Assembly: GCA_005862285.1 (NCBI GenBank)
Contig: SZXW01000010.1
Span: forward strand, 186,001-250,000
Direction of reading: 5' to 3'
DNA from: Chlorobium sp.
GTDB lineage: Bacteria > Bacteroidota > Chlorobiia > Chlorobiales > Chlorobiaceae
DNA: 64,000 nucleotides
The translations under genes and the position numbers were made by a program. Below the pieces are notes generated by a model that saw only the letters and a program-made list of their open reading frames with translations, was not told the origin of the DNA and made no database searches. Of the stretch, positions 29,769-34,927 are shown piece by piece (the stretch's first letter is position 1; each line of letters begins with the position of its first letter).

Positions 29769-29897
29769 AGTCGCCGATTTAATAGACAACTTGCGGGCGA
29801 CTCTAAACTAAACCGCTAAAGCGTCAGGACTCATGAGATCCTGACCGGTTCCGAAGGGAACATAACCGGATAATAAGGATGGACCAACAACCATGAG
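29769..29897 (+). ncRNA. Structured 5' leader A (possible cis-regulatory RNA)
   Basis: AGTCGC (29769-29774) pairs perfectly with GCGACT (29797-29802), enclosing a conserved GACAACTTGC. A short hairpin CGC-TAAA-GCG follows. CTCATG (29830-29835) is complementary to CATGAG at the start codon of the next ORF (29892-29897); nested inside are ATCC with GGAT of the ribosome-binding site (29877-29880) and CCGGTT (29845-29850) with AACCGG (29864-29869). The same plan with different inner stem sequences occurs in leader B, which argues for selection on RNA structure. No Rfam family was recognised with certainty; Chlorobi-1 and Chlorobi-RRM are families to compare. Confidence 0.55.
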
Positions 29898-30069
29898 TCA
29901 ACTTTTTTTCAACAAACGAACAGAACAACAACCCAACACAACGGTCTGCAACAATGGCTTTGCCATCGGCGTCGGTTCTGCAAGCTGCAAAGGTATTTTG
30001 TGGTTTTATTACCTTTTACGAGCTGCCTTGTATATAAAACTCAATCAACAATATAACATGGGAGGATAA
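29893..30069 (+). CDS. Small ORF behind leader A, function unknown
   Basis: A 58-codon ORF with ribosome-binding site AAGGATGG about 10 bases ahead of its ATG. It begins MSQLFFNKRTEQQPNTTV, is Gln/Asn-rich at the start and has a hydrophobic, aromatic middle (GILWFYYLLRAALYIKL) that could be one membrane helix. No family is recognised. It is reported because of the conserved leader ahead of it; without that it would be doubtful. Confidence 0.35.
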   Translation: MSQLFFNKRTEQQPNTTVCNNGFAIGVGSASCKGILWFYYLLRAALYIKLNQQYNMGG

Positions 30070-30097
30070 CTCTTCAACAACAGGCTTTCCTGTTAAC

Positions 30098-30232
30098 AGT
30101 CGCGGGATTTAACACCGACAACTTGCAGTGCGACTTAAAATAAAACCTGCTAAAGCGTCGTAGCTCATGAAATCCTGATCATGATCTGCAACGCAGATCA
30201 TTCATCATCAGGAAAAGGATAAAAGACATGAG
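30098..30232 (+). ncRNA. Structured 5' leader B, paralogue of leader A
   Basis: It shares AGTCGC/GCGACT (30098-30103 with 30130-30135), GACAACTTGC, GCTAAAGCGTC and CTCATGA with leader A in the same order. CTCATG (30164-30169) pairs with CATGAG at the next start codon (30227-30232). The inner arm here is TCCTGAT (30173-30179) with ATCAGGA (30207-30213), capped by ATCTGC/GCAGAT (30184-30198). The sequence of this inner arm differs completely from leader A while pairing is kept. Translation of the next ORF would be blocked when the long stem forms. Confidence 0.55.
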
Positions 30233-30395
30233 CAAAAAAAATCAATCCATCACTACATCTCTCGACTCTGCCGACAGGCACAGCCACGCCTATCGTTACC
30301 AATGGGCGGAGCTTTCAATTACGGAAACGAAATCGGTTAACTCCATTTATGCAAGGAGACTGCTGATCGGATTTACACGTTACCAAGCATCATAA
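30228..30395 (+). CDS. Small ORF behind leader B, function unknown
   Basis: A 55-codon ORF with GGAT as ribosome-binding site about 7 bases before the ATG. It begins MSKKNQSITTSLDSADRHSH and is basic and hydrophilic, with YARRLLIGFTRY near the end. It has no similarity to the ORF behind leader A apart from the MS start, so the leaders appear to have been duplicated independently of the coding parts. No family recognised. Confidence 0.35.
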   Translation: MSKKNQSITTSLDSADRHSHAYRYQWAELSITETKSVNSIYARRLLIGFTRYQAS

Positions 30396-31081: not shown

Positions 31082-31310
31082 TTGATATCAAGCGGTATAT
31101 GAGAAGTCTATATAAAAATCATGAACAGTTCGAAGGATACAAACGTAAATAATTTTTTTAATAACAAAATAATTGGAACGGAATGAAATAGGTGTTTGTT
31201 GATTACGTTTATAAATCATCAGGAGAAGTCTTTTTACGAGACTCGCCAACCGAGCCAAATGGTCACGGTGGCAATGCATCAAAGCAGATGTGCCCGTAAG
31301 GGAAAAAGCT

Positions 31311-31341
31311 AAAAACCGCCTGATGTCAAAGGCGGTTTTTT
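31311..31341 (+). terminator. Intrinsic terminator
   Basis: Perfect 10-base stem AAAAACCGCC (31311-31320) with GGCGGTTTTT (31331-31340), 10-base loop, T-run on the 3' side. It may end the transcript carrying the zinc-ribbon gene. The stretch 31082-31310 before it holds no gene that can be supported. Confidence 0.85.
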
Positions 31342-32749: not shown

Positions 32750-33715
32750 TTATTTGGCCTTCAGCATATAACTTACCGCATTGGCGGTCACACCAAGCTG
32801 CCTTGCCGTATCGGCAATCGATATTCCATGCTCATTCACAGCCTGCATCGCCAGCTGTTTTCTCAATCCAGGCAACACCCCGCATCTGCTGCCGCTGCGC
32901 AGGAAGATCACCGTCACGCATGCCGCATTGCACGTCTGTTCGATCAATTCATTGAACTTTGCCATTCGCTCTGTTACCGGTATGACGAAATCCTTTCGTC
33001 CTTCTGCCGCTTTAAGCACCTCCGAGACAAAATCGCCATCGCCAAGAATCCTCTCATCACCATGAGCCTTCTCGCCATGCCTGCGCATCGATTGCACCTT
33101 TGCCCATCCTCCCTGCGAACGGATCAACCCGCCGCCTGACAGCTCCTGTTCCCGATCGATCCCCATCTCCTCTTCGAGAAATTCATAGTAGGCTTTCCTT
33201 GCTGCACCCTCCCGGTGTCCGAAAAACTTCAGCACGTAATCACTTTCCATCCAGTCGCACCTGAGCTTCTTCATCAGCACCGCATGACCGCTCCATGGAT
33301 ATTCGGCAAGCTCCTCAAGCGTTTGGACAAGTCCTGCCCGCAAGGGATTCAGGTGGATATAGGCTACCAGTTTGTCGAAATAGGCTTCTTCTTCGCAGAT
33401 AATCGATTTATAGCGGTTCTGGAACAGATGACCGGCCCGCTTGTGCCTTCGGTTGAAATATTGCGCATAACCACTGAGCAGCCTGCGCATATAGGTTGAC
33501 AGGCCGCTCGGTCCGCTTTTCAGCAGAATATGCGCATGATTGGTCATCAGCGCGAACGCATATATGCTTGTTCCGGTTTCTTTCGCAAGCAGTCCCATCC
33601 TGTCCGTAAACAGTTTTCTGTCCTTGTCGTCAAGAACAATCGAACCTCTCTCGATTCCTCGGATGATCACGTGATGCAAGGTGCCGGGTTCATCAAGTCT
33701 CGCTCCTCTTGGCAT
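32750..33715 (-). CDS. REP-associated tyrosine transposase (RAYT)
   Basis: A 321-residue Y1-type HUH nuclease of the TnpA-REP group. The HUH motif is visible as TNHAHILL (H60, H62), and the helix with the candidate catalytic tyrosine is GYAQYFNRRHKRAGHLFQNR (Y83/Y86), typical of RAYTs. The C-terminus has a helix-turn-helix-like end (ISIADTARQLGVTANAVSYM). RAYTs are usually single-copy enzymes that recognise REP palindromes. This gene is bracketed by perfect 17-bp inverted repeats (32655-32671 and 33787-33803), which fit its REP substrate. It sits between the relic I-C array and the I-F array. Confidence 0.88.
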   Translation of the reverse strand: MPRGARLDEPGTLHHVIIRGIERGSIVLDDKDRKLFTDRMGLLAKETGTSIYAFALMTNHAHILLKSGPSGLSTYMRRLLSGYAQYFNRRHKRAGHLFQNRYKSIICEEEAYFDKLVAYIHLNPLRAGLVQTLEELAEYPWSGHAVLMKKLRCDWMESDYVLKFFGHREGAARKAYYEFLEEEMGIDREQELSGGGLIRSQGGWAKVQSMRRHGEKAHGDERILGDGDFVSEVLKAAEGRKDFVIPVTERMAKFNELIEQTCNAACVTVIFLRSGSRCGVLPGLRKQLAMQAVNEHGISIADTARQLGVTANAVSYMLKAK

Positions 33716-33819: not shown

Positions 33820-34927
33820 TTTCTAAGCTGCCTGTCCGGCAGTGAACCTACCGGGAAGTAATCAATACCTTGTTTCGTTTTTCTAAGCTGCCTGTCCGGC
33901 AGTGAACTCACATATTGACCTTCATCAAGTGATGTTTTCTTTCTAAGCTGCCTGTCCGGCAGTGAACATTTAAAAAAGGACACTGCCATGATCTACACTT
34001 TTCTAAGCTGCCTGTCCGGCAGTGAACGCAGATATTCGGGCAAAAATTGAGGCGCTTTTTTTCTAAGCTGCCTGTCCGGCAGTGAACGACGGCATAATCG
34101 ATTACTACGCTTCTCTTGTTTTCTAAGCTGCCTGTCCGGCAGTGAACATCAGGCACAACCGCGCAAGGGGGAAGCATAATTTCTAAGCTGCCTGTCCGGC
34201 AGTGAACAACGTGTAAAGGCGGATTGCTTTTTGAGTACTTTTCTAAGCTGCCTGTCCGGCAGTGAACTTATCAGCAAGGATTACATCGAATGTTCTCAAT
34301 TTCTAAGCTGCCTGTCCGGCAGTGAACACAGAATCCACATCGATGACCAGCATGCTTACTTTCTAAGCTGCCTGTCCGGCAGTGAACCTGGAGGGAGTTC
34401 GATTCCGTTGTTTGCTGTTTTTCTAAGCTGCCTGTCCGGCAGTGAACTCCCATGTCTTACAGTTCGTCTGCTTTAAAACTTTCTAAGCTGCCTGTCCGGC
34501 AGTGAACATAATATTTTGCACGTTGCAGAAAGTCGATACTTTCTAAGCTGCCTGTCCGGCAGTGAACTAAAATAATATGCCATGTTATCATCCGATTCAT
34601 TTCTAAGCTGCCTGTCCGGCAGTGAACGAGATCTTAATGAGGTTCAAAAAAAGACACAATTTCTAAGCTGCCTGTCCGGCAGTGAACCTGAAACGAAAAG
34701 AGCAGGACGCGAAGGAACATTTCTAAGCTGCCTGTCCGGCAGTGAACGATATACGTCCAATCATGACATTAAGGGAATATTTCTAAGCTGCCTGTCCGGC
34801 AGTGAACTCTTCACCGCTCATTTCAAGGCCGAAATCTTTTTTCTAAGCTGCCTGTCCGGCAGTGAACTGATACATGCCAACGCAACCTATCGACCCCCTT
34901 TTCTAAGCTGCCTGTCCGGCAGTGAAC
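33820..34927 (-). CRISPR. Type I-F CRISPR array, 19 repeats and 18 spacers
   Basis: Nineteen identical 28-base repeats at an exact 60-base period (starts 33820, 33880 ... 34900), with 18 spacers of exactly 32 bases. Read on the minus strand, the repeat starts GTTCACTGCCGGACAGGC and ends AGCTTAGAAA; the internal CTGCC/GGCAG pairing forms the hairpin cleaved by Cas6f. The repeat class and direction match the cas genes, so transcription is leftwards from the leader at 34928-35057 and the newest spacer should be 34868-34899. No repeat is degenerate, even at the trailer end. No spacer was seen to match another part of this window by eye; external targets were not searched. Confidence 0.98.

Follow-up and report, generated by a model that had tools for sequence, protein, structure and literature searches.

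SAM-II (RF00521) and SAM-V are the closest described systems to the RNA leaders reported here. In SAM-V, the nucleotides U9, U10, U19, U20, U47, and A48-A50 contact S-adenosylmethionine (SAM), and its structure is superimposable on that of SAM-II (PMC6061858). For SAM-II, 44 doublets have been reported, some with a terminator in the first element and ribosome-site control in the second, and SAM-I/IV elements adjoining SAM-II have also been reported (PMC9481103). For metK in beta-proteobacteria, a survey from 2014 reported no regulator (PMC4239095). We found no report of SAM-II in Chlorobi or green sulfur bacteria in the open-licence papers searched.

The present study concerns two leaders, A (29769-29899) and B (30098-30233), whose starts lie 329 bases apart in the window, i.e., the whole 64,000-nucleotide stretch of Chlorobium sp. 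DNA that was analyzed. We consider it likely, with a probability of about 0.8, that A and B act as translational riboswitches arranged in series, that they belong to a divergent SAM-II-like clade, and that their SAM-bound state is OFF. This would extend SAM-II-type sensing to green sulfur bacteria.

An Rfam scan at the cut-off returned only the downstream SAM-I/IV riboswitch and a CRISPR array. With the threshold lowered, both A and B aligned end to end with SAM_alpha (SAM-II, RF00521), neither reaching the gathering cut-off of 36 bits (Table 1); the best Chlorobiaceae relative in this family search, from a second genus (L005), scored 34 bits. The original prediction had recognized no known riboswitch core and had left a choice between a new RNA and one of the listed Chlorobi motifs. 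Neither view is supported, as the core is that of SAM-II, below the cut-off, and Chlorobi-1, Chlorobi-RRM, SAM-Chlorobi, and SAM-V were ruled out as the identity of A and B, with no Rfam match at E values up to 10 between 29600 and 31500. Furthermore, a covariance model trained on 24 non-Chlorobi sequences only (R3) returned A and B as the sole significant matches across the whole genome, the third match having an E value of 0.26. The class has the features of SAM-II membership, namely the P1 stem with its third strand, the ligand-site nucleotides, and the P2 pseudoknot. Judged from these sequence features, A and B form a divergent SAM-II-like clade, with a SAM-II core that is recognizable though under the Rfam cut-off. 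The first pattern matches in the same genome (L002-L004) were not taken as the motif, L002 lying inside a transposase-like gene, and two weak RF00521 matches in relatives (L009 and L010) were discarded, the motif being absent from their sequence.

A and B have a common layout, in which an H-type pseudoknot core is followed by a hairpin at the start codon. As originally described, the blocks AGTCGC...GCGACT, GACAACTTGC, GCTAAAGCGTC, and CTCATGA follow one another in the same order in both, with a complement to the next start codon in each, and the nested arms (CCGGTT/AACCGG in A; TCCTGAT/ATCAGGA plus ATCTGC/GCAGAT in B) are present and paired in the predicted folds. The 3′ parts fold better than dinucleotide shuffles, with z values of -2.5 for A and -4.9 for B.

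Table 1. Positions of the parts of leaders A and B and of the neighboring features in the window
Feature	Position	Strand	Basis
Likely -10 box for leader A, TATAAT; transcript would begin at P1	29756..29761	+	Perfect hexamer 7 nt upstream of P1
Putative aptamer A, SAM-II-like pseudoknot	29769..29829	+	SAM_alpha 23.6 bits; leave-out model R3 64.2 bits, E 1.9e-13
A: P1 5′ strand AGTCGCC, partner GGCGACT 29796-29802	29769..29775	+	Sequence; P1 covariation on alignment A6
A: GATTT, matching the third strand of the SAM-II/SAM-V triplex	29776..29780	+	Alignment to RF00521 GAUUU; role per PMC6061858
A: P2a 5′ strand GAC, pseudoknot with GTC 29823-29825	29785..29787	+	P2a covariation
A: CTTGC, pseudoknot strand opposite GCTAAA (29815-29820); putative ligand-site nucleotides	29790..29794	+	Rfam alignment; PMC6061858
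A: lock 5′ arm GACTCATG, partner CATGAGTC 29892-29899 at start codon	29828..29835	+	Predicted fold
A: nested hairpin; AAGGA ribosome-site-like sequence covered by ATCCT/AGGAT; CCGGTT/AACCGG inside	29838..29880	+	Predicted fold
ORF A, 58 aa	29893..30069	+	Family and relative searches negative
Putative aptamer B, SAM-II-like, 28 nt past ORF A stop codon, intercistronic	30098..30163	+	SAM_alpha 19.9 bits; R3 53.1 bits, E 1.5e-10
B: P2a 5′ strand CGAC, partner GTCG 30157-30160	30116..30119	+	Sequence; P2a covariation
B: lock 5′ arm GCTCATG, partner CATGAGC 30227-30233 at start codon	30163..30169	+	Predicted fold, z -4.85
B: nested hairpin TCCTGAT/ATCAGGA, inner GATCTGC/GCAGATC	30173..30213	+	Predicted fold
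ORF B, 55 aa	30228..30395	+	Family and relative searches negative
Truncated metK, SAM synthetase N-terminal domain only, 114 aa	30438..30782	+	78% identical to the genome's intact metK
SAM-I/IV riboswitch (RF01725), 56.9 bits; 3′ end overlaps hairpin then T run	31211..31318	+	

Relatives in other genomes

A DNA pattern built on the conserved blocks found at least 120 matching stretches in the GTDB collection. Among the matches listed, 102 of the 119 loci with a readable downstream frame precede metK, at a distance of 51-119 nt; these belong mainly to Burkholderiales, with others in Desulfobulbus, Fangia, and Cysteiniphilum, and the non-metK loci include those before MoxR-like ATPase genes. None of the 15 such metK loci examined reached the Rfam SAM-II cut-off, nor did L041. 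The clade sits before metK, the gene that was left without a regulator in beta-proteobacteria in the 2014 survey (PMC4239095). As a SAM-II-like clade on metK under the Rfam cut-off, it is apparently unlisted; models newer than Rfam, e.g., those behind PMC9481103, may already include it.

With a wider covariance model (R2), matches were obtained in 91 of the 150 genomes sampled from the order to which a Comamonadaceae host belongs; for the class of the window the figure was 5 of 98, and for its phylum 11 of 198. Since R2 also picks up terminator-type copies before metX and metH, these counts describe the superfamily and not this clade only. Several proteobacterial loci carry doublets, in which a first aptamer with a terminator is followed by the translational form with a ribosome-site hairpin. 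At L062, L067, L087, L156, L057, L124, and L083, the translational form comes no more than about 150 nt after a terminator-type SAM-II. Viral contigs searched with the pattern yielded nothing, so a phage origin finds no support there.

Some other arrangements were seen among the relatives. One operon (L120:1350-5902, minus strand) encodes a MoxR-like ATPase, an unknown protein, a VWA/CoxE-like protein, and a SAM-synthetase-like protein; it is preceded by a SAM-I/IV plus a SAM-II-like leader, and a DUF3293 gene lies further downstream. SAM-I/IV also occurs near a SAM-II-like copy in L134. At L124:3280-3399, the Burkholderia sRNA Bp2_287 (RF02424) gave a below-cut-off match antisense to a SAM-II-like copy with terminator, and RF02424 might thus represent the opposite strand of leaders of this kind.

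Promoter, cistrons, and neighborhood

A promoter of its own probably drives leader A, as suggested by the hexamer listed in Table 1. Among the proteobacterial copies, 86 of 114 loci have a -10-like hexamer (5-6/6) whose end lies 4-10 nt before P1, versus 0 of 456 background windows. No -10-like hexamer was found upstream of P1 in B, which lies between cistrons. Of the 8 Chlorobiaceae copies, 6, including B, are intercistronic, 15-48 nt past a stop codon. Specifically, G021 has three copies in a row (48, 18, and 38 nt past the upstream stops), G005 has one 25 nt past a stop, and G069 one at about 15 nt. Tandem SAM-II riboswitches are already known; intercistronic copies in Chlorobiaceae are new, and they make serial translational gating within one operon directly testable.

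ORFs A and B, which would be translated under our reading, have no homologue in 98 genomes of the class and none in Pfam or NCBIfam. A possible five-codon frame, ATGGACCAACAACCATGA, occupies 29879-29896, and its stop overlaps the ORF A start codon (ATGA). The truncated metK begins 42 nt past ORF B. Besides this partial copy, the genome has an intact metK on contig 15, whose leader is SAM-Chlorobi (70.5 bits). Further along the window, a 35-codon ORF follows the SAM-I/IV riboswitch and its hairpin and T run (31211-31340), and a CRISPR array at 33820-34927 (CRISPR-DR4 repeats, 19 matches) adjoins a transposase-like ORF with an IS200/REP-type sequence (32750-33715).

The truncated metK following B and the lack of homologues for ORFs A and B indicate that the locus may be decaying. 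They leave an appreciable chance, though one well below even, that the copies in the window are relics, i.e., once-functional riboswitches in a decaying island of truncated metK and short non-conserved ORFs, without present function. Against such decay, neither copy has lost any of the core nucleotides, P1, P2a, or the lock, and the -10 box of A is still perfect.

In the other Chlorobiaceae, the targets in G004, G005, and G021 include no methionine-related family. YbjN-like, PP2C, and ADP-ribosylglycohydrolase genes lie near the copies in G021, and the direct targets elsewhere in the family are unknown proteins. A defence-system reading of these neighbors was rejected, only one PP2C protein having matched a PADLOC candidate model. 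More speculatively, in some Chlorobiaceae individual cistrons of accessory operons might each be gated by SAM through an intercistronic copy of their own. Non-methionine genes would then respond to SAM depletion all at once and in a graded way, perhaps as an alarm against SAM-consuming or SAM-degrading attack. We hold this scenario to be improbable; if true, it would be a new architecture, with translational riboswitches placed in series within a single operon.

Start-codon pairing and direction of the switch

In the predicted folds, the start codons of both ORFs lie in CATGAG paired with CTCATG, over 8 bp for ORF A (ATG 29893) and over 7 bp for ORF B (ATG 30228). To see this lock in a wider set, pairing between the start region and the tail that follows GCUAAAGCG was computed in 125 leaders, representing 49 distinct start-site classes. 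True tail/start partners had a mean of -10.5 kcal/mol versus -8.8 kcal/mol for permuted ones, and 0 of 20,000 permutations of the 49 classes were as good. The lock postulated by the original prediction therefore holds overall against permuted partners, but it does not reach significance within the Chlorobi subset alone (1,684 of 20,000), partly because Chlorobi starts share ATGAG, or within the non-metK subset alone (3,588 of 20,000). A part of the metK signal could come from conserved N-terminal codons. Of 124 predicted folds, 111 have at least 75% of the ribosome site in pairs. Lock pairs with changed bases are GCUCAUG/CAUGAGC in B, CGCUC/GAGCG in L045 and L053, and GCCGUAUAGGU/ACUUAUAUGGC in L100; in L141, where metK begins MEL and not MAN, the lock UUCGCCA/UGGCGAA is shifted 6 nt downstream.

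According to the proposed mechanism, the 5′ part folds into an H-type pseudoknot, consisting of P1, the third strand GAUUU, CUUGC opposite GCUAAA, and a P2a of 3-5 bp, which most likely binds SAM. The outermost helix of the predicted 3′ hairpin pairs the AUG of the next small ORF, with the Shine-Dalgarno region covered in A and many relatives. Bound SAM would hold the pseudoknot together, along with its P2a just 5′ of the hairpin, and the start codon would stay closed; when SAM is low, the tail would be able to re-pair and translation would begin. B, between the cistrons, would gate the second one. The switch is most likely OFF in direction.

The opposite direction, an ON switch in which SAM binding draws the P2a strand from the lock and opens the start codon, is suggested by the metK leaders. 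There, UUC belongs both to the P2a strand and to the lock GUUCGCCA/UGGCGAAC; thus, the two cannot both form fully, and SAM could make the full lock weaker instead of stronger. The lock of A and B begins 2 nt or more past P2a without overlap, so both can form together. Furthermore, SAM-V and translational SAM-II have been described as OFF switches (PMC6061858), and repression by SAM would be expected for metK. We therefore regard an ON switch as unlikely. Two other pairings were considered and set aside. An antisequestor between the tail and the P1 3′ strand, seen in the metK leaders and partly in B, was not adopted because it is missing from many copies, A among them. An alternative hairpin, GTCAGGA/TCCTGAC, that uses the P2a strand is possible in A and in one G021 copy and is not general.

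Ligand site and comparison with known systems

Alignment A6 comprises 63 distinct sequences. Pairing in P1 reaches 97.3% there, and 49 cells carry changes on both sides, with 0 of 500 shuffles as good; these values are favored by A6 having been fitted to P1. No such fitting entered the P2a pseudoknot, which was taken directly from the sequences; its three pairs are 91% paired versus 72% in shuffles (0 of 2000) and include AU to UA exchanges. For the combined structure (31 sequences), both the cells paired and the covariation score beat all shuffles. As the sequences are related, shuffles overstate the significance somewhat; the control with slid versions of the P1 pairing, which were 24-70% paired in A6, is free of that flaw. 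The original prediction of a structured cis-regulatory RNA at translation initiation is thereby supported, since the further genomic copies with compensatory changes that it proposed to seek by covariance-model scans were found. The stronger covariation across genomes lies in the aptamer helices; the pairing change between A and B lies in the nested arm of the expression platform.

The counterparts of the SAM-V contact nucleotides are GAUUU, CUUGC, and GCUAAA, and both A and B retain all of them. The two contacting uridines of GAUUU are assigned by SAM-II numbering. The third strand is often GAGUU in proteobacterial metK copies and GAUUU in the Chlorobi copies. From these nucleotides, the pseudoknot most likely binds SAM. 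The position of the class before metK in 102 of 119 loci among the matches listed, along with the metX and metH leaders, makes a methionine or SAM signal the expected one.

In Chlorobiaceae, where the downstream genes are not methionine genes, the same fold might have come to bind another ligand such as SAH. The targets in G004, G005, and G021 would be in line with this, as would the different leader, SAM-Chlorobi, of the intact metK. We nevertheless find it quite improbable, as A and B keep all SAM-contact nucleotides, including the uridine third strand that favors the charged sulfonium (PMC6061858), and a metK remnant lies directly downstream of B. A start-codon hairpin without metabolite sensing, i.e., an RNA thermometer or a protein-binding operator, would account for the strong lock hairpins in A and B and is highly improbable, given that conservation is highest in the pseudoknot aptamer, which is common to metK, metX, and metH leaders of other phyla.

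Among the known systems, SAM-Chlorobi (RF01724) is likewise a SAM-related leader in Chlorobi, but it does not match A or B and is found instead at the intact metK of the genome. The metXZ element of beta-proteobacteria (PMC4239095) has a pseudoknot plus a terminator before metX or metZ and, compared by description, is probably related to the terminator-type copies seen here, whereas the present form sits before metK and is translational. SAM-V has the same triplex core and translational control (PMC6061858); the leaders here, however, gave no Rfam match to it, have a longer P2a and no recognized P3, and carry the ribosome site in a separate downstream hairpin, whereas that of SAM-V lies within P2a.

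With SAM-II (RF00521), the leaders share the H-type pseudoknot of P1, the GAUUU third strand, CUUGC/GCUAAA, and P2a, as well as methionine-pathway targets in relatives and tandem use. They differ from it in scoring 20-34 bits against a cut-off of 36, in a short P2a (3-5 bp) with AA and GC spacers, in being mostly on metK with a translational hairpin that includes the start codon, and in occurring in Chlorobiaceae. In the transcription-then-translation tandems, the form takes the second place, as SAM-V does in SAM-II/SAM-V tandems (PMC6061858, PMC9481103, PMC2704228). The reported tandem SAM-II doublets, with a terminator followed by ribosome-site control (PMC9481103), have their like here in L062, L067, L087, and L156. 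In contrast to such one-gene doublets, the copies in the window and in G021 lie between cistrons, each before a different ORF.
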